The notes beneath the pieces are model-generated. The model saw only the letters and a program-made list of their open reading frames with translations. It was not told the DNA's origin and did no database searches. Shown piece by piece: positions 34,633-43,794 of a stretch of 64,000 nucleotides of DNA. Location of the stretch: contig CP082962.1 of assembly GCA_021730285.1 (NCBI GenBank), positions 1,736,001-1,800,000 of the forward strand. The letters are read 5' to 3'. Both the position numbers and the translations under genes were made by a program. The DNA is from Desulfovibrio sp. JY. GTDB taxonomy: Bacteria > Desulfobacterota > Desulfovibrionia > Desulfovibrionales > Desulfovibrionaceae. The number at the start of each line of letters is the position of its first letter. Within the stretch, counting starts at the first letter, position 1.

Positions 34633-35148
34633 ATGCAAAACTCAACTTGCCAAGCGGTCGGCGAATGCAGGGTGCCGGAGCATGCGGTTTTGCCGCAGCC
34701 GTTGTACCGGGAAGTCGTTCAGTTCATTGAGTCCCTTCCCCAGAAAGAAGGCCATCTCGTCACCGTGCTCCATAAGGCTCAAAGTGTTTTCGGCTATCTG
34801 CCCATCGAAGTGCAGCAGTTCGTGGCCGATTACATGGAAGTTCCCCTGGCCCAGGTCTACGGCGTCGTCAGCTTTTACACGTTCTTCACCATGGTGCCCA
34901 AGGGCAAGTATCCCATTTCCGTGTGCATGGGCACGGCCTGCTTCGTCAAGGGCGCGGACAAGGTGGTCCATGCCTTCAAGGAGCAGCTCAAGATCGACAT
35001 CGGCGACGTGACCCCGGATGGCAGGTTTTCCATCGACACCCTGCGTTGTGTCGGCGGCTGCGCCCTGGCCCCCATCGTCATGGTCGGGGAGAAGGTCTAC
35101 GGCAATGTGACGCCTGGGCAGGTCAAGAAGATCCTGGCCGAGTACTAG
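34633..35148 (+). CDS. hndA: NAD(P)-linked [FeFe]-hydrogenase subunit A
   Basis: The NuoE-like [2Fe-2S] subunit of the Hnd hydrogenase, 171 residues. Cluster ligands are in CMGTACF (about residue 97-102) and CVGGCALAP (about residue 138-142), giving the C-x4-C and C-x3-C pattern of this thioredoxin-like family. It passes electrons between the HndC and HndD modules. I chose ATG 34633 because AAGGAGAGG lies nine bases upstream; the open frame further upstream covers regulatory DNA. It is the first gene of hndABCD, behind a CRP/FNR-type palindrome. Confidence 0.95.
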   Translation: MQNSTCQAVGECRVPEHAVLPQPLYREVVQFIESLPQKEGHLVTVLHKAQSVFGYLPIEVQQFVADYMEVPLAQVYGVVSFYTFFTMVPKGKYPISVCMGTACFVKGADKVVHAFKEQLKIDIGDVTPDGRFSIDTLRCVGGCALAPIVMVGEKVYGNVTPGQVKKILAEY

Positions 35149-35186
35149 CGCAATCGCGAGCGACTTTTAGATAAGGAGCGCTTTGA

Positions 35187-35567
35187 ATGAGCACCATCCG
35201 ATCCCTCGAAGATCTCAAGGCCAAGCGCCAGGAGATTCTTGACCGCAAGGCCGTCGCAAAAGGCAAGACCATCATCAACGTGTCCCTGGCCACCTGTTCC
35301 ATCGCCGCCGGCGGCAAGGTCGCCATGGAGGCCATGCAGGACGAAGTGGCTAAAAACGGGCTCACCGGCGTGGAATTCATGCAGTCGGGCTGCATGACCT
35401 ACTGCTACGCCGAGCCCACGGTGGAAATCACGCTGCCGGGCAAGACTCCCGTCGTCTTCGGCGGCGTGGATGAAAACAGGGCCCGGGAACTCGTCACCGA
35501 GTACGTCATGAAGGGCGAACCGGTCGAGGGAATCATCCCCGTCAACTACGAACGGGTAGTCCTGTAA
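35187..35567 (+). CDS. hndB: NAD(P)-linked [FeFe]-hydrogenase subunit B
   Basis: A 126-residue thioredoxin-like ferredoxin subunit. Candidate [2Fe-2S] ligands are the cysteines in LATCSIAAGG (residue 37) and SGCMTYCYAEP (residues 69 and 73). The extra ligand may come from a different loop or the cluster may be bound with a changed spacing. In the Hnd complex this subunit is thought to support electron transfer to HndC. AAGGAG lies upstream of ATG 35187, 38 bases after hndA. The next gene begins 24 bases downstream. Confidence 0.93.
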   Translation: MSTIRSLEDLKAKRQEILDRKAVAKGKTIINVSLATCSIAAGGKVAMEAMQDEVAKNGLTGVEFMQSGCMTYCYAEPTVEITLPGKTPVVFGGVDENRARELVTEYVMKGEPVEGIIPVNYERVVL

Positions 35568-35591
35568 AAAAAACTACCGGGAGACGACGAT

Positions 35592-37067
35592 ATGGCAGCG
35601 ACGACCACGGAAAAAAAGCAGCTTCGGATCGCCACCCGCAATTGCGGCTTCATCGATCCGGAAAATATCGACGACTACATCGCCCTGCGGGGCTATGAGG
35701 GTCTGGCCAAGGTCCTGACCATGACCCCGGCCGAAGTGGTGGACCTGGTCAAGCGCTCGGGCCTGCGCGGCCGCGGCGGCGCGGGCTTCCCCACCGGCAT
35801 CAAGTGGGGCATCGCGCTCGGCAACAAGGCCGACCAGAAGTACATGGTGTGCAACGCCGACGAAGGCGACCCGGGCGCGTTCATGGACCGCGCCGTGCTC
35901 GAGGGCGACCCCCACTCGGTGGTGGAGGCCATGGCCATCGGCGGTTACGCCATCGGGGCCACCCGGGGCACGGTCTACATCCGGGCCGAGTATCCCCTGG
36001 CCATCAAGCGCCTGAAAAAGGCCATCGACGACGCCCGCGACTACGGCCTGCTCGGCGAGAACATCTTCGGCTCGGGCTTCGATTTCGACATCGAGCTGAA
36101 GTACGGCGCCGGCGCGTTCGTCTGCGGCGAGGAAACGGCGCTGATTCGCTCCATGGAAGGCAAGCGCGGCGAGCCCGTGACCAAGCCGCCGTTCCCGGCC
36201 CAGTCCGGCTATTGGGAAAAGCCCACCATCGTCAACAACGTCGAGACCTTCGCCAACATCCCCGCCATCATCATCAACGGCGCGGACTGGTTCTCCGGGA
36301 TCGGCACCGCCACCTCCAAGGGCACCAAGGTCTTCGCCCTGGCCGGCAAGATCCAGAACGTGGGCCTGATCGAGGTTCCCATGGGCATCACGCTGCGCGA
36401 GGTCATCTTCGACATCGGCGGCGGCTGCCCCGACGGCAAGGCCTTCAAGGCCGTGCAGACCGGCGGCCCCTCCGGCGGCGCCCTGGCCAACAAGGACCTC
36501 GACGTGGCCATCGACTACGAGTCCTTGGCCGCCTGCAAGTCCATCATGGGTTCCGGCGGCATGGTCGTCATGGACGAGGACGACTGCATGGTGTCCGTGG
36601 CCAAGTTCTTCCTGGACTTCACCATGGACGAGACCTGCGGCAAGTGCACCCCCTGCCGCATCGGTTCCAAGCGCCTCTACGAGATCCTGGACAGGATCAC
36701 CAAGGGCAAGGGCACCCGGGCCGACCTCGACCACCTCAAGTCCCTGTCCGAGATCATCAAGGACACGGCCCTGTGCGGCCTCGGGCAGACCATGCCCAAC
36801 CCGATCCTGTCCACCATGGACACCTTTGCCGACGAATACGCGGCCCACATCGACAACAAGAAGTGCCCGGCCCACGTCTGCACGGCCCTGCTGACCTACA
36901 CCATCGATCCCGCCAAGTGCACCGGCTGCGGCCTGTGCACCAGGGTCTGCCCGGTGGAGTGCATTTCCGGCACGAAGAAGCAGCCGCACACCATTGATGC
37001 CACACGGTGCATCAAATGCGGCGCCTGCTACGACAAGTGCAAGTTCGACTCCATCATCAAGCAATAA
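35592..37067 (+). CDS. hndC: NAD(P)-linked [FeFe]-hydrogenase subunit C (flavin, NAD(P) site)
   Basis: The NuoF-like subunit that holds FMN and the NAD(P) site, 491 residues. Motifs in order are [14 protein letters not shown] (NADH/FMN fold), [13 protein letters not shown], the N3-type [4Fe-4S] site CGKCTPCR near residue 350, and a C-terminal two-cluster ferredoxin domain with [15 protein letters not shown] and [11 protein letters not shown]. In the family the flavin is the site of hydride transfer, and in more recent work the Hnd enzyme was described as electron-bifurcating with ferredoxin. ATG 35592 follows a GGGAG site. hndD begins 20 bases later. Confidence 0.96.
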
Positions 37068-37086: not shown

Positions 37087-38844
37087 ATGTCCATGCTGAC
37101 GATAACCATAGACGGCAAAACGACGTCCGTGCCGGAGGGCAGCACCATTCTGGATGCCGCCAAGGCGCTCGACATCGACATCCCGACCCTGTGTTACCTC
37201 AATCTCGAGGCGCTTTCGATCAACAACAAGGCCGCCTCCTGCCGTATCTGCGTGGTCGAGGTCGAGGGCCGGCGCAACCTGGCTCCGTCCTGCGCCACTC
37301 CGGTCACCGACAACATGGTGGTCAAGACCAATACCTTGCGCGTGCTCAACGCCCGCCGCACCGTGCTCGAACTGCTGCTCTCCGACCACCCCAAGGACTG
37401 CCTGGTCTGCGCCAAGTCTGGCGAGTGCGAGTTGCAGACCCTGGCCGAGCGCTTCGGCATCCGCGAGTCGCCCTATGACGGCGGCGAGATGTCCCACTAC
37501 CGCAAGGACATTTCCGCCTCCATCATCCGCGACATGGACAAGTGCATCATGTGCCGCCGTTGCGAGACTATGTGCAACACGGTCCAGACCTGCGGCGTGC
37601 TCTCGGGCGTCAACCGCGGCTTCACCGCCGTGGTCGCCCCGGCCTTCGAGATGAATCTGGCCGACACCGTGTGCACCAACTGCGGCCAGTGCGTGGCCGT
37701 GTGCCCCACCGGCGCCCTGGTCGAGCACGAGTACATCTGGGAAGTGGTCGAGGCCCTGGCCAACCCGGACAAGGTCGTCATCGTCCAGACCGCCCCGGCC
37801 GTGCGCGCGGCCCTCGGCGAGGACCTCGGCGTCGCCCCCGGCACCTCGGTCACCGGCAAGATGGCCGCCGCCCTGCGCCGCCTGGGCTTCGACCACGTCT
37901 TCGACACCGACTTCGCCGCCGACCTGACCATCATGGAGGAAGGCTCGGAATTCCTCGACCGCCTGGGCAAGCACCTGGCCGGCGACACGAATGTCAAGCT
38001 GCCCATCCTCACCTCCTGCTGCCCGGGCTGGGTCAAGTTCTTCGAACACCAGTTCCCGGACATGCTCGATGTGCCGTCCACGGCCAAGTCGCCGCAGCAG
38101 ATGTTCGGCGCCATCGCCAAGACCTACTACGCCGACCTGCTCGGCATCCCGCGTGAAAAGCTCGTGGTCGTCTCGGTCATGCCCTGCCTGGCCAAGAAGT
38201 ACGAGCGCGCCCGTCCGGAATTCTCCGTGAACGGCAACCCGGACGTCGACATCGTCATCACCACCCGTGAGCTGGCCAAGCTCGTCAAGCGCATGAACAT
38301 CGACTTCGCCGGGTTGCCCGACGAGGACTTCGATGCGCCCCTTGGCGCGTCCACGGGCGCGGCCCCGATCTTCGGCGTCACCGGCGGCGTCATCGAGGCG
38401 GCGCTGCGCACCGCCTACGAGCTGGCCACCGGCGAAACGCTCAAGAAGGTCGACTTCGAGGACGTGCGCGGCATGGACGGCGTGAAAAAGGCCAAGGTCA
38501 AGGTCGGCGACAACGAGCTCGTCATCGGCGTGGCCCATGGCCTCGGCAATGCGCGGGAACTGTTGAACCGCGTGCGCGCTGGCGAGACCTTCCACGCCAT
38601 CGAGGTCATGGCCTGCCCGGGCGGCTGCATCGGCGGCGGCGGACAGCCCTACCACCACGGCGACGTGGAACTGCTGAAGCAGCGCACCCAGGTCCTCTAC
38701 GACGAAGACGCGGGCAAGCCGCTGCGCAAGTCCCACGAGAACCCGTACATCATCGAACTCTACGAGAAGTTCCTGGGCAAGCCGCTCTCCGAACGCTCGC
38801 ATCAGCTGCTGCATACCCACTACTTCAAGCGGCAGCGCTTATAA
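37087..38844 (+). CDS. hndD: NAD(P)-linked [FeFe]-hydrogenase catalytic subunit D
   Basis: The catalytic subunit that reversibly oxidises H2 at the H-cluster, 585 residues. An N-terminal [2Fe-2S] domain (cysteines around CRICVVEVEG) leads to a His-ligated [4Fe-4S] site (HPKDCLVCAKSGEC), then two ferredoxin clusters (CIMCRRCETMC and CTNCGQCVAVCP). The H-domain has all three signatures: TSCCPGW, MPCLAKKYE and MACPGGCIGGGG. There is no twin-arginine signal, so the enzyme is cytoplasmic. AAGGAGG stands seven bases before ATG 37087. A GC-rich hairpin repeat follows the stop. Confidence 0.97.
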   Translation: MSMLTITIDGKTTSVPEGSTILDAAKALDIDIPTLCYLNLEALSINNKAASCRICVVEVEGRRNLAPSCATPVTDNMVVKTNTLRVLNARRTVLELLLSDHPKDCLVCAKSGECELQTLAERFGIRESPYDGGEMSHYRKDISASIIRDMDKCIMCRRCETMCNTVQTCGVLSGVNRGFTAVVAPAFEMNLADTVCTNCGQCVAVCPTGALVEHEYIWEVVEALANPDKVVIVQTAPAVRAALGEDLGVAPGTSVTGKMAAALRRLGFDHVFDTDFAADLTIMEEGSEFLDRLGKHLAGDTNVKLPILTSCCPGWVKFFEHQFPDMLDVPSTAKSPQQMFGAIAKTYYADLLGIPREKLVVVSVMPCLAKKYERARPEFSVNGNPDVDIVITTRELAKLVKRMNIDFAGLPDEDFDAPLGASTGAAPIFGVTGGVIEAALRTAYELATGETLKKVDFEDVRGMDGVKKAKVKVGDNELVIGVAHGLGNARELLNRVRAGETFHAIEVMACPGGCIGGGGQPYHHGDVELLKQRTQVLYDEDAGKPLRKSHENPYIIELYEKFLGKPLSERSHQLLHTHYFKRQRL

Positions 38845-39280: not shown

Positions 39281-40795
39281 ATGCGACAGGAAAGCGATGC
39301 CCTGGGAGCAAGGCAGCTCCCCGAGGGCGCCCTGTACGGCATCCACACGCTTCGGGCCATCGAGAATTTCCCTGTCTCCGAAACGCGTCTTTTTCCGGAA
39401 TTCATCCGCGCCTATGCCATGGTCAAGGCGGCCTGCGCCAAGGCCAACCTGGACACCGGCCATCTGGACCCGGGGAAGGCCGGGGCCATCGTGGCCGCCT
39501 GCGACGAGGTCGCAGACGGCCGGCACGCCGACCAGTTCCTGGTCGATCCCTACCAGGGCGGGGCCGGCACCTCCACTAACATGAACGTCAACGAGGTGGT
39601 GGCCAACCGGGCCTTGCAGCTTTTGGGGCATGCACCGGGCGAGTACGATTTTCTTTCGCCCCTTGGCCACGTCAACCTGCACCAGTCCACCAACGACACC
39701 TATCCCACGGCGCTTAAGGTCGCGGCCTTGTGGCTGCTCAAGGACCTGGAAGCGGCCACGGCGCGTTTGCAGGAAGTCTTCCAGGAAAAGGAGGCGGCCT
39801 TTGCCCATGTGGTCAAGGTCGGCCGCACCGAATGCATGGACGCCGTGCCGCTGACGCTTGGCATGGAGTTCGGGGCCTTTGCCGAAGCCATCTCCCGCGA
39901 CCGCTGGCGCATTTTCAAATGCCGCGAGCGCATCAAGCAGGTGTCGCTCGGCGGCACGGCTGTCGGCACCGGGCTTGGCGCGCCGCGCGAATTCATTTTC
40001 CGGGCGGCCGAGCATCTGCGAAACCTCACCGGGCTGCCGCTTTCCCGGGCGGAAAATCTCGTCGACGCCACGGCCAATGCCGACCCCTTTGTCGAGGTCT
40101 CCGGCATCCTCTCGGCCTATGCCGCCAATCTGCTGAAGATTTCCTCGGACCTGCGGCTTCTGGCCAGCGGCCCGGCAACCGGCATCGGCGAGATCCGACT
40201 GCCCGCGCTCCAGGCCGGCTCGTCCATTATGCCCGGCAAGGTCAATCCCGTGATCCCGGAATGCGTGGGCCAGGTGGCCTTGCGCGTTGCCGCCAACCAT
40301 CAGGCGCTGACCCTGGCCGCCGGTCTGGGCCAGCTCCAGATCAACCAGTTTTTGCCGCTGGTGACCCAGAGCCTGCTCGAGTCGCTTAGGCTCTTGCGCC
40401 AGGCGTCGCGCATCTTCGCCGACAAGTGCGTGGCCGGCATCACGGCCGACGAGGCGCGCTGCCGGGAGCTGGTGGAAAAAAGCCATGCCCTGGCCACGGT
40501 GCTGGTGCCGGCCCTTGGCTACGAGGCCGTCTCGAAGCTCATGGCCGCCTCCGAGGCCAAAGGCGTGCCCCTGGCCGAACACCTCGAGGCCGCGGGCATC
40601 CTCTCCCGTGACGCCGCCGCCGCGCTGCTCTCGCCCAAACGCATGCGCAAGCTCGGCTATGAAGGAGGGGATTATGAGGGGGTATGCCTCCGGCGGCCAG
40701 GGGAGGCGCTGCTTCCCCTGGACCCCACCGCCGAGGGGCCACGGGCCCCCCGGACCCCCCATAAAGGGGAAGGTATGGGAGAAGGCGATGCTTGA
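39281..40795 (+). CDS. aspA: Aspartate ammonia-lyase-like enzyme with repeat-encoded tail
   Basis: A fumarase/aspartase-superfamily lyase, 504 residues. Signature segments are YGIHTLRAIENFPVS, STNMNVNEV, HQSTNDTYPTA and GSSIMPGKVNP. Aspartase interconverts aspartate with fumarate and ammonia. In several bacteria an aspartase gene lies among [FeFe]-hydrogenase maturation genes, as here. The normal family C terminus is reached near SPKRMRKLGY; about 35 further residues, including LRRPGEALLPLDPTAEGPR, are encoded by a GC-rich repeat (40683-40768). ATG 39281 has GGGGAG upstream. The stop overlaps the next gene by 8 bases. Confidence 0.88.
   Translation: MRQESDALGARQLPEGALYGIHTLRAIENFPVSETRLFPEFIRAYAMVKAACAKANLDTGHLDPGKAGAIVAACDEVADGRHADQFLVDPYQGGAGTSTNMNVNEVVANRALQLLGHAPGEYDFLSPLGHVNLHQSTNDTYPTALKVAALWLLKDLEAATARLQEVFQEKEAAFAHVVKVGRTECMDAVPLTLGMEFGAFAEAISRDRWRIFKCRERIKQVSLGGTAVGTGLGAPREFIFRAAEHLRNLTGLPLSRAENLVDATANADPFVEVSGILSAYAANLLKISSDLRLLASGPATGIGEIRLPALQAGSSIMPGKVNPVIPECVGQVALRVAANHQALTLAAGLGQLQINQFLPLVTQSLLESLRLLRQASRIFADKCVAGITADEARCRELVEKSHALATVLVPALGYEAVSKLMAASEAKGVPLAEHLEAAGILSRDAAAALLSPKRMRKLGYEGGDYEGVCLRRPGEALLPLDPTAEGPRAPRTPHKGEGMGEGDA
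40683..40768 (+). repeat. Two-hairpin GC-rich repeat, copy 6 (within aspA)
   Basis: ATGCCTCCGGCGGCCAGGGG, then TCCCCTGGACCCCACCG, GGGGCC/GGGCCCCC, CGGACCCCCC and ATAAAGGG. It has the common backbone of this repeat family. Unlike the others it lies inside an open reading frame, where it encodes the last part of the aspartase-like protein and supplies the spacer before the next gene. Confidence 0.7.
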
Positions 40796-41384
40796 GGAAG
40801 GACGGGAAATACAGGTTTACGCCGGCTTGGATGGGGCCGGGCTGGCCCAGGCCATGGCCGTGGCCGACAGGCTTTTTTTCCATGCCGGCATGTATTCCAA
40901 TTTCGGCCGGGACCCGGAGATGGGCGCGGCGCTGGAGACGGCCATGACGCGGCCCACCTTCGAGCGCCTGGATATCGTGTCCTTCGATCCGGTGGCCGGC
41001 GCGGCCTACTGGGAGGAGTTCCGGGCCATTTTGCGCCGGGACGTGCCGGAAGTGACCCTTCGCCGCGAGTTCGCCGCCTCGGCCGCCTTTTGCGACGCCC
41101 TGGCCGCGCGCCACCCGACCAAGGTCAGGCTCTTCCGCACCAAGGCCATGCCCCTGGCCCCGATCCTCCTGGTCGGCGACACGATTTTCGCCGGCCATTA
41201 CCTGCACGGCCCGGTGCCCGCGCCCCAGGGCCTGTGGCTGGCCATCCCGGCCGACGTGGCCGATCTGCTCTCCCGCGCCGAGGACGACGTCTCGCCGGCC
41301 GCCCTCGATCCCCTGGCCAAGGGGGCCTACCGGCTGGTGTGCGAGTGTGTGGCGGCGCGAAACGCCTCGCGCCGTTTGGCCTGA
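40788..41384 (+). CDS. Unrecognised protein in the hydrogenase maturation operon
   Basis: A 198-residue cytoplasmic protein that I cannot assign. It contains RLFFHAGMYSNFGRDPEMG, RPTFERLDIVSFDP, LFRTKAMPLAPILLVGDTIF and AGHYLHGPVPAPQGLWLA. There is no radical-SAM motif, Walker motif, signal peptide or membrane segment; the two cysteines in the C-terminal LVCECV are its closest pair. ATG 40788 overlaps the aspartase stop by 8 bases, and hydE starts 17 bases after its own stop, so it belongs to the maturation operon. A role linked to [FeFe]-hydrogenase assembly is inferred from position only. Confidence 0.75.
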   Translation: MLEEGREIQVYAGLDGAGLAQAMAVADRLFFHAGMYSNFGRDPEMGAALETAMTRPTFERLDIVSFDPVAGAAYWEEFRAILRRDVPEVTLRREFAASAAFCDALAARHPTKVRLFRTKAMPLAPILLVGDTIFAGHYLHGPVPAPQGLWLAIPADVADLLSRAEDDVSPAALDPLAKGAYRLVCECVAARNASRRLA

Positions 41385-41401: not shown

Positions 41402-42400
41402 ATGCGCCCATCCGAAATTACGCAACTGCTCTCCGGAGCCGACGATGCCGGGCTTTTTTCCGCTGCCGAGGCCCTGACCCGCCAGAACTTCGGCCTGGAA
41501 ATCTACCTGCGCGGCATCATCGAGTTTTCCAACCACTGCGCCAACAACTGCCGTTACTGCGGCCTGCGCCGGGCCAACAGGGGCCTTTCCCGCTATCGCA
41601 TGGACGTGGACGACATCCTGGCCGCGACAGCCCTGGCCGGGGAACTGTCCGTCGGCACGGTGGTGCTCCAGTCCGGGGACGATTTCGCCTACTCCAAGGA
41701 GGACATCGGCCGCATCGTGACCGGGGCCAAGGAGGCGTCGGACGTGGCCGTGACCCTGTCGCTCGGCGACCGGCCCGCCGCCGACCTCGACTACTGGCGC
41801 TCCTGCGGCGCCGACCGCTACCTGCTCAAGATGGAGACCTTCGACGAGGCGCTCTACGCCCGCTCCCGGCCGGGACTGACCGTGGCCGACAGGCTGGGGC
41901 GCATCGAAGCCCTGCGGGCCGCCGGCTACGAGGTGGGCTCGGGCATCATCACCGACCTGCCCGGCATGACGTTGGATATTTTGGCCAGGGACCTCCTGCG
42001 CCTGGCCGATCTGGACCTGGACATGATCGCGGCCGGACCCTTCGTGCCCCATCCCGACACGCCCTACGGGACCGAGGCCGCCGGCTCCGTCCTGACCGCG
42101 CTGCGGGCCATGGCCATCCTGCGCCTTTTAAATCCCCTGGCCAACATCCCCTCCACCTCGGCCTTAAGCGCCCTGCGCGAAGGGGCCAGGGAGCAGGGGC
42201 TCACCGTCGGGGCCAACGTCATCATGCCGTCGCTGACCCCGGAAACCGTCAGCGCCGCCTACAACATCTATCCCGGGAAAAACGTCTTTCGCGCCGACGC
42301 CGCTTCGCGCGTGGAAGCCGCCCGCGCCGCCATCCGCCGCGTGGGCCGCCTTCCGTCCACGGCTGTCGGCGGTTCCAAGAGGAGACGCCATCATGGCTGA
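41402..42400 (+). CDS. hydE: [FeFe]-hydrogenase maturase HydE (radical SAM)
   Basis: A radical-SAM enzyme needed for building the 2Fe subcluster of the H-cluster; it is thought to act on the Fe-containing intermediate made by HydG. The 332-residue protein has the motif CANNCRYCGLR (CxxxCxxC) near residue 48 and the barrel segments VVLQSGDDF, KMETFDEALY and GSGIITDLPGMT. It resembles biotin synthase-type enzymes, but the context with hydF supports HydE. AGGA precedes ATG 41402. The stop overlaps the hydF start by 8 bases (ATGGCTGA). Confidence 0.94.
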   Translation: MRPSEITQLLSGADDAGLFSAAEALTRQNFGLEIYLRGIIEFSNHCANNCRYCGLRRANRGLSRYRMDVDDILAATALAGELSVGTVVLQSGDDFAYSKEDIGRIVTGAKEASDVAVTLSLGDRPAADLDYWRSCGADRYLLKMETFDEALYARSRPGLTVADRLGRIEALRAAGYEVGSGIITDLPGMTLDILARDLLRLADLDLDMIAAGPFVPHPDTPYGTEAAGSVLTALRAMAILRLLNPLANIPSTSALSALREGAREQGLTVGANVIMPSLTPETVSAAYNIYPGKNVFRADAASRVEAARAAIRRVGRLPSTAVGGSKRRRHHG

Positions 42401-43604
42401 GTCCGAAACCAAGGCCCCGCGCGGGGTCAGGCTGATCATCACCCTGGTCGGCCGGCGCAATGCCGGCAAGTCGTCGCTCATAAACGCCGTCACCGGCCAG
42501 GACGTGGCCATCGTGTCCGATTTCGCCGGCACCACCACCGACCCGGTGGCCAAGCCCTACGAACTGTTGCCCCTCGGCCCGGTCACCTTCTACGACACGG
42601 CCGGCCTCGACGACGTGGGCGAACTTGGGGCGCTTCGCGTGGCAGCCACCAAAAAGGTGCTGTGGCGCACGGACATCGCCGTGGTGGTGGCCGAGGCCGC
42701 TGGGCTCACCGAGGCCGAGCGGGCCATCATCGCCGACATCCGAAGCCTCGAGATCCCCATCCTGCTGGTCTTTAACAAGGCCGACCAAGCGGCACCGTCC
42801 GAGGCCGACATTGCCTGGTGCCGCGACCAGGGCCTGCGCACCGTCGTGGCCAGCGCCGCCACCGGGGCGGGCGCGACCGAGGTCAAGGAGGCGCTCATCG
42901 CCCTGGCCCCGCCCGAGGCCGTGCGCGAGCCGGTCTTGGCCGGCGACCTTTTCGGCGAGGGCGACACCGTGGTCTGCGTGGTGCCCATCGATCTGGCCGC
43001 GCCCAAGGGCCGGCTCATCCTGCCCCAGGTCCAGGTCCTCCGCGAGATTCTCGACGGCGACGCCGCGGCCGTGGTGGTCAAGGAGCGCGAGCTCGAAGCG
43101 GCGCTTTCCAACCTGCGCCGGCCGCCGGCCCTGGTCATCACCGATTCCCAGGTCATCCTCAAGGTCTCGGGCGATGTGCCCGAGGACGTGCCCCTAACCA
43201 CCTTTTCCACGCTGTTCGCCCGGTTCAAGGGCGATCTGCCGACGCTCGCCGCCGGAGCCGCCACCATCGACCGGCTTCGCGACGGCGACACCGTGCTCAT
43301 GGCCGAGGCCTGCTCCCACCACGTCCAGGCCGACGACATCGGCCGGGTCAAGCTGCCCCGCTGGATTTCCCAGTACACGGGCAAGGACCTCGAATTCGAG
43401 ATGTACTCGGGCCACGATTTTCCCGACGACCTGGAGCGCTTCGCCCTGGTCGTCCACTGCGGCTCGTGCATGCTCGGGCGCATGGAGATGCTGCGGCGCA
43501 TCAAGGAATGCCAGCGCCGGGGCGTGCCCGTGACCAACTACGGCGTGGCCATCTCCAAGGTGCAGGGCGTGCTGGACCGCGTCTTGCGACCTGTGTTGCG
43601 GTAG
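42393..43604 (+). CDS. hydF: [FeFe]-hydrogenase maturation GTPase HydF
   Basis: The scaffold and carrier GTPase that delivers the 2Fe subcluster to the hydrogenase apoprotein. The 403-residue protein has an N-terminal Era/TrmE-like G domain (GRRNAGKSS, DFAGTTTDP, DTAGLDD, NKAD), a dimerisation region, and a C-terminal cluster domain with CSHH and HCGSC, the conserved CxH...CxxC ligands of its [4Fe-4S] cluster. AGAGGAG lies upstream of the ATG, inside hydE. A 165-bp three-hairpin element follows the stop by 25 bases. Confidence 0.96.
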   Translation: MAESETKAPRGVRLIITLVGRRNAGKSSLINAVTGQDVAIVSDFAGTTTDPVAKPYELLPLGPVTFYDTAGLDDVGELGALRVAATKKVLWRTDIAVVVAEAAGLTEAERAIIADIRSLEIPILLVFNKADQAAPSEADIAWCRDQGLRTVVASAATGAGATEVKEALIALAPPEAVREPVLAGDLFGEGDTVVCVVPIDLAAPKGRLILPQVQVLREILDGDAAAVVVKERELEAALSNLRRPPALVITDSQVILKVSGDVPEDVPLTTFSTLFARFKGDLPTLAAGAATIDRLRDGDTVLMAEACSHHVQADDIGRVKLPRWISQYTGKDLEFEMYSGHDFPDDLERFALVVHCGSCMLGRMEMLRRIKECQRRGVPVTNYGVAISKVQGVLDRVLRPVLR

Positions 43605-43629: not shown

Positions 43630-43794
43630 GCGAGAGGGGAACCCTTTTTGAAAAAAGGGTTCCCCTCTCGCGCTCTCCCCTCCCCAAAACTTTTAACGGG
43701 TACAGGTACGGTAACGATAATCCACTGTAATCGCTAAAAGTCTTTGGAAAGGGGGTCCGGGGGGAAACTTTTCTACAGAAAAGTTTCCCCCCGG
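43630..43794 (+). repeat. 165-bp three-hairpin element, copy 1
   Basis: Starts with a 42-bp palindrome (43630-43671, 20-bp arms GCGAGAGGGG... with a 2-base loop) and ends with a 38-bp palindrome (43757-43794, CCGGGGGGAAAC.../...GTTTCCCCCCGG). Between them, ACTTTTAACG...TACAG and CTGTAATCGCTAAAAGT form a third, imperfect stem around a variable centre. The left end lies 25 bases past hydF and should stop its transcript. Copies of identical length are at 49589 and 53129. Confidence 0.9.

Follow-up and report, generated by a model that had tools for sequence, protein, structure and literature searches.

The stretch of DNA analyzed here (the window, 64,000 nucleotides from Desulfovibrio sp. JY, 1736001-1800000 of contig C1) carries an [FeFe]-hydrogenase gene cluster on its forward strand in the order hndA-hndB-hndC-hndD, aspA, X, hydE, hydF, followed by trkH and further genes. 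We use the name X for the 198-aa product of the open reading frame at 40788-41384 (+), which runs from ATG to TGA, belongs to an unnamed family and is predicted to form a single phospholipase D (PLD)-fold domain. The group A6 [FeFe]-hydrogenase subunit hndD (37087-38844, +, start codon approximate) was identified by NF040763 (896 bits, above the curated cut-off). The remaining hnd subunits, hndA, hndB and hndC, occupy 34633-37067 (+) and were named gene by gene: the best model for hndC, TIGR01959 (nuoF_fam), scores under its cut-off and PF01512 scores over its own, and the names hndA and hndB rest on position and on conservation beside hndC/hndD in relatives, not on HMM matches.

The aspartate ammonia-lyase gene aspA (39281-40795, +; NF008909, 611 bits) shares 8 bp with the start of X, and the H-cluster radical SAM maturase gene hydE (41402-42400, +; TIGR03956, 269 bits), with an intact CX3CX2C motif, begins 17 bp past the X stop codon; both the overlap and the 17-base spacing agree with the original prediction. 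The H-cluster maturation GTPase gene hydF (42393-43604, +; TIGR03918, 548 bits) shares 8 bp with hydE. All three named genes score above the curated cut-offs of their models. Downstream of hydF, a terminator-like hairpin at 43757-43794 (+) consists of a 17-pair stem and a T-rich tail; seven such sites were found versus 4.7 expected, and the hydF hairpin is a consensus match only. The hydG gene of this genome (G000) is not part of the operon and lies at ~3.39 Mb of contig C1.

At ~2.405-2.412 Mb of C1 (locus L072), the same genome encodes another radical SAM protein resembling HydE (TIGR03956, 276 bits, over the cut-off). The middle Cys of its motif is replaced by Asp (CX3DX2C) in 12 of 12 members of its tree clade. 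Its cluster also encodes a [NiFe]-hydrogenase large-subunit homolog (PF00374, E 3.8e-103), in which the C-terminal CxxC is kept and RxCGxC is absent, together with a NifH-like protein and two nitrogenase component 1 family proteins. This cluster looks like an unusual metallocofactor system.

The tail of aspA (codons ~448-504; 40622-40792, +) matches a dispersed genome repeat: query residues within 397-502 match 16 other places in the genome as pieces of 26-100 residues with 38-77% identity. It looks as if the repeat lengthened AspA and created the overlap with X, and the exact overlap is probably a recent local feature because the overlapping tail matches this repeat. Beyond the window, too, aspA and X are generally packed tightly. 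In 22 loci the distance from the end of the AspA match to the X start ranged from -26 to +219 bp, and in 12 of them it was within 11 bp either way.

Gene X is a genuine, lineage-restricted protein family of the hyd maturation operon

The window's genome (4.69 Mb) contains a single match to X. Orthologs with 58-90% identity were found in eight other genomes of the same genus among 149 family genomes searched. Comparison with four congeners gave Nei-Gojobori dN/dS values of 0.16, 0.19, 0.40 and 0.45 for X, and 0.11-0.33 for HydE, HydF and AspA. The orthologs and these ratios rule out a chance open reading frame. An alternative in-frame start further upstream, at 40485, would give 299 aa; it was also rejected, as relatives start near the 198-aa position.

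Matches to X occur in 39 of the 149 genomes of the family, including one doubtful case (G070, E 2.8e-4, one stop), and, at the level of the order, in 59 of 247 genomes. These 59 all belong to the window's family and represent 7 of 51 genera. In a phylum sample, X was found in 1 of 395 genomes, the window's own, in a listing that does not give the number of genomes from X-bearing genera. A single-protein search of genome contigs, which reaches close relatives only, returned one relative, and a tblastn search of plasmids gave no X match. The nearest named relative found was Solidesulfovibrio alcoholivorans (L031), family Desulfovibrionaceae. Two X matches (G129 and G611) contain an in-frame stop; their open frames measure 192 and 189 aa, respectively.

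Conservation was assessed in an alignment of 31 diverse members (A1). Y36, F39, R83, P125, G148, W150 and R182 are invariant, and R28, H32, A33, L49, A52, S98, F101, L105, V113, P122, G136, H140 and C187 are at least 90% conserved. A block singled out as conserved from the window sequence, AGHYLHGPVPAPQGLW, does contain invariant G148 and W150 as well as nearly invariant G136 and H140. One locus (L056) was left out of the X alignments and X tree and retained in the distance table, and L044, a copy of L043, was removed from trees and counts.

No family had been recognized for this protein originally, and X of the window indeed matches no Pfam or NCBIfam family; neither database yielded a radical SAM, GTPase or lyase model. 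Searches with all 31 A1 members gave scattered hits only, with best E values of 0.0075 (Pfam), 0.091 (NCBIfam) and 0.043 (PADLOC, a weak match of one of the 31 members to DrmC), and no PLD family was found in Pfam at E <= 1. The best sequence-profile match in the PDB was BamD (E 0.11), which we took as chance.

Genomic context of X

The order search (247 genomes) located 65 X genes, of which 55 directly precede a same-strand hydE, with match-to-match gaps of 8-229 bp; this number, like all X context counts here, is inflated by relatedness among genomes. The 65 places exclude G136, G145 and G070, which are absent from the order-search matches; the loci read with their flanks do not include G145, an X match of the family search in a genome that is 75% complete. 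Of the seven genera with X, six show hydE adjacency, and in six genomes with two X genes (G072, G104, G140, G601, G608 and G634) each copy precedes its own hydE. By score, 67 of 148 HydE matches reach at least 285 bits, and 55 of these 67 are preceded by X versus none of the 81 below that value, a cut that was chosen after seeing where X stops. The twelve close HydE matches without X in front include those of six genomes with X elsewhere (G117, G031, G120, G142, G079 and G654) and those of five genomes which are not among the order-search X matches (G051, G007, G024, G074 and G108).

All 30 hyd loci that we read, including the window, have the order X-hydE-hydF, and 24 of them also have aspA in the cluster. 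Outside the window's genus, the fetched loci usually run hydA, an RR-signal ORF, hydG, aspA, X, hydE, hydF. In 18 of 20 loci checked there, the ORF behind hydA encodes 110-123 aa, and we read it as a putative hydB, as in a Tat-exported HydAB. In the window's genus we found either hnd-aspA-X-hydE-hydF or, in G133 and G025, X-hydE-hydF without nearby hnd and aspA. X accompanies more than one hydrogenase type, Hnd and, on our reading, an exported HydAB.

The relation to aspA is looser. In G133 and G025 the closest aspA is ~80 kb from X (77 and 76% identical), while in two further genomes with X and no aspA in the cluster (G065 and G036) the other aspartases are at most 48% identical. A hand count of HydE-clade loci, without the contig-edge loci L035 and L039, gave 24 with both X and aspA, 4 with X only, 1 with aspA only and 8 with neither (Fisher p 1e-4, from related rows). 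The tightest association of X is with hydE-hydF, and that with aspA is weaker.

The loci in which X-hydE-hydF has parted from hnd-aspA (G133:C2 ~187-190 kb and G025:C1 ~111-115 kb) have, ~1.3 kb away, a gene that matches PLDc_2 twice. This proximity is probably a coincidence.

The remaining 10 of the 65 X genes are located away from hydE, six in genus g38 and four in genus g22. In g38, all 7 fetched loci (L040, L041, L042 and L068-L071) have X directly behind a short-chain-dehydrogenase-like gene (named by eye), and these include genomes without detected hydE/hydF: G038, G085 and G112, listed as 99% complete, carry X and gave no hydE match at E <= 1e-30 and no hydF over the cut-off. In g22, the diverged X is behind a TolC-like gene and also adjoins a two-component system, away from hyd operons, in 3 of 3 fetched loci (L063, L064 and L066; both names by eye); the fourth orphan X of this genus (G654) is outside the fetched set.

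These data partly support the original prediction that X could be an accessory maturation or regulatory factor. The connection to hyd maturation stands, as homologs are mostly not found away from hyd genes, and X precedes hydE-hydF in 30 of 30 hyd loci read. Since X is linked to hyd maturation in this way, co-expression, which had been called very likely, is also supported. What fell is the constancy of the association: homologs are not always beside hydE/hydF, and an accessory factor present only alongside the maturases would not be expected in G038, G085 and G112.

Trees and evolutionary rates

In a HydE tree of 79 rows, for which we note a long-branch warning and from which L082, a repeat of the window, was left out, a single 39-row clade (support 98/87) contains all 30 X-linked rows. 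The X label changes six times on this tree versus 24.4 times with shuffled labels. This pattern fits a single arrival of X in one HydE operon lineage followed by a few losses.

The orphan X genes form two groups in the X tree (39 rows), with two label changes, and none of 200 bootstrap trees had only one change. The g22 group clusters with hyd-linked X (97/82), and the g38 group is beside the window's genus, in an uncertain position and with a long-branch warning. Our reading is that X may have departed from the operon twice; the tree is unrooted, and the reverse direction is also compatible with it.

Pairwise distances of X and HydE are correlated (Pearson 0.90, Spearman 0.64) to a similar degree as those of HydE and HydF (Pearson 0.91, Spearman 0.57). 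The mean distance is 0.60 for X versus 0.45 for HydE and 0.29 for HydF, indicating that X evolves faster.

This faster evolution could mean that X is a passenger, a conserved protein whose function is unrelated to hydrogenase and which is stable in the operon by happenstance. The two separate X groups elsewhere and the three genomes keeping X without detected hydE/hydF point in the same direction. However, happenstance would have to account for hydE adjacency at 55 loci in six of seven X-bearing genera, for two-X genomes in which each copy precedes its own hydE, and for the retention of X where aspA left. We regard a passenger as very improbable.

Predicted fold and loss of the catalytic motif

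An AlphaFold2 model computed on A1 has a pLDDT of 90.5 and a pTM of 0.88. It forms one domain of 198 residues whose elements start with a strand at residues 9-12. A Foldseek search of the PDB gave 14 matches at E <= 0.001 (TMq 0.39-0.58), all of them TrmBL2 or PLD-superfamily proteins, including a phospholipase D, vaccinia F13 and phosphatidylserine synthase. In a VIA structure comparison, 80 of 997 chains had Z >= 8; the 50 rows listed (Z 8.0-11.7) are nearly all PLD-fold chains, as judged mainly by title. Top rows among these were TrmBL2 (Z 11.7), SauUSI residues 22-182, NucT (11.4), PLD4, Nuc (10.9), F13 and FAM83B (10.5), and rows within 1 Z are to be read as tied. X is thus predicted to have the alpha/beta fold of phospholipase D, a membership that applies to the predicted model. 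An hhalign comparison of X with six congeneric PLD proteins or domains gave a weak match of 47 columns (probability 27.8, E 6.4e-4) covering the N-terminal part of X, in the register expected for the first strand and helix.

The catalytic motif HxK(x4)D, expected of a catalytic PLD or a Nuc-type phosphodiesterase, is present in none of 40 X members. Placed by the alignment A1, strand order and the Nuc motif, residues 123-125 (L-A-P; 41154-41162, +), with P125 invariant in A1, presumably occupy the site of the PLD catalytic His/Lys. They precede the strand at 126-129, the counterpart of the strand after the catalytic motif. Residues 136-150 (GHYLHGPVPAPQGLW; 41193-41237, +), a conserved block with G136, H140, G148 and W150, are presumably at the place of the PLD G-S-x-N motif. 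The single-domain nucleases Nuc and NucT resemble X in size and fold (1byr and 6ehi, respectively); they differ in that X lacks HxK(x4)D (40 of 40 members) and, by eye, a signal peptide, and that its 31 aligned members have no Pfam PLD match.

One possibility is an enzymatic X whose active site on the PLD scaffold has been rebuilt from H32, Y36, R83, H140, W150 and R182, acting on a small molecule for the H-cluster or for aspartate/ammonia metabolism. Polar residues are kept across the 31 aligned members (Y36, R83, W150 and R182 invariant; H32, H140 and C187 at least 90%), and the pairing of X with a short-chain dehydrogenase in g38 would suit a small-molecule reaction. We nevertheless consider an enzyme unlikely given the missing motif and the nature of the PLD-fold matches that also lack it. 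TrmB and TrmBL2 are PLD-fold binding modules. FAM83, the third of these motif-less matches, is also a binding module: its DUF1669 domain is reported to be without PLD activity and to anchor CK1 kinases (PMC6008594). This precedent indicates that a dead PLD domain can turn into a protein anchor. The likeness of X to this vertebrate domain (5lzk, Z 10.5) is structural, and a kinase anchor has a different role from a factor of metallocofactor assembly.

The best structural match of X was the C-terminal domain of TrmBL2 (5box_A, 140 residues, rmsd 3.5), and TrmB itself (2f5t) had a Z of 10.0. We take both to combine a PLD-like fold with a binding role. Such matches raise the possibility of a ligand-sensing regulatory module that, like the TrmB effector domain, adjusts the activity or the synthesis of the maturases in response to a metabolite, for example aspartate or fumarate. 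TrmBL2 is among the top folds with the TrmB sugar-binding domain further down the list, and the co-occurrence of X and aspA in the HydE clade would also suit a sensor. Yet TrmBL2 and TrmB are archaeal regulators, while X is bacterial, hyd-linked and only ~10% identical to them, and the X model is one domain without the N-terminal winged-helix or helix-turn-helix part of a TrmB-type regulator, which mildly counts against X as a classical regulator. Four loci (G133, G025, G065 and G036) also retain X without aspA in the cluster. A sensor is, in our view, about as doubtful as an enzyme.

A possible role in H-cluster assembly

X is associated with one HydE clade and its operon. The reading that we favor, while giving it no better than an even chance, is that X is a non-catalytic PLD-fold binding protein assisting a step of HydE/HydF in one operon lineage of the Desulfovibrionaceae, commonly hydG-aspA-X-hydE-hydF. 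As the PLD catalytic motif is lost, X most likely binds rather than cuts. We infer this binding role, together with the partner and the step. X would be cytosolic, with no signal peptide seen by eye, and could dock to HydE, HydF or a HydE/HydF complex, or keep a small ligand in a rebuilt cleft. It may thereby help the transfer, or the nitrogen supply, by which the HydE product is converted to the HydF-bound [2Fe] subcluster. X would be auxiliary and not essential, because related operons occur without it; the twelve close HydE matches lacking X in front and the persistence of X without hydE/hydF mean that it is no universal requirement.

X can also be compared with its operon partners, the known hyd proteins HydE, HydF and HydG together with AspA. 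Pagnier et al. 2024 reported that, in vitro, AspA can supply the ammonium nitrogen of the DTMA bridge, and that HydE, HydG and HydF together with amino-acid metabolism parts build the H-cluster in a defined in vitro system (PMC11736057). The same source describes aspA as enriched near hyd genes and closer to hydF than to hydE in networks (PMC11736057), and X sits between aspA and hydE-hydF. In the text of that paper, the terms 'unknown function' and 'TM1266' are absent, and the single use of 'hypothetical' is in a reference (PMC11736057). X was not described in the literature searched, as judged by titles and abstract openings, and the search turned up no wet-lab evidence on it. For S. fructosivorans, a member of the window's genus, hndD deletion and complementation strains are reported (PMC10084766).

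A bolder version, which we put forward tentatively and which is somewhat doubtful, is that X is a dedicated H-cluster assembly factor, a dead PLD scaffold or carrier linking HydE, HydF and the nitrogen derived from AspA. X would then serve [FeFe]-hydrogenases of two kinds, the cytosolic bifurcating and the exported, and would twice have been released for another job. As a presumed binding fold encoded between an ammonia-producing enzyme and two maturases, X is a concrete candidate for the in-cell handover of H-cluster intermediates and of the bridge nitrogen between proteins.
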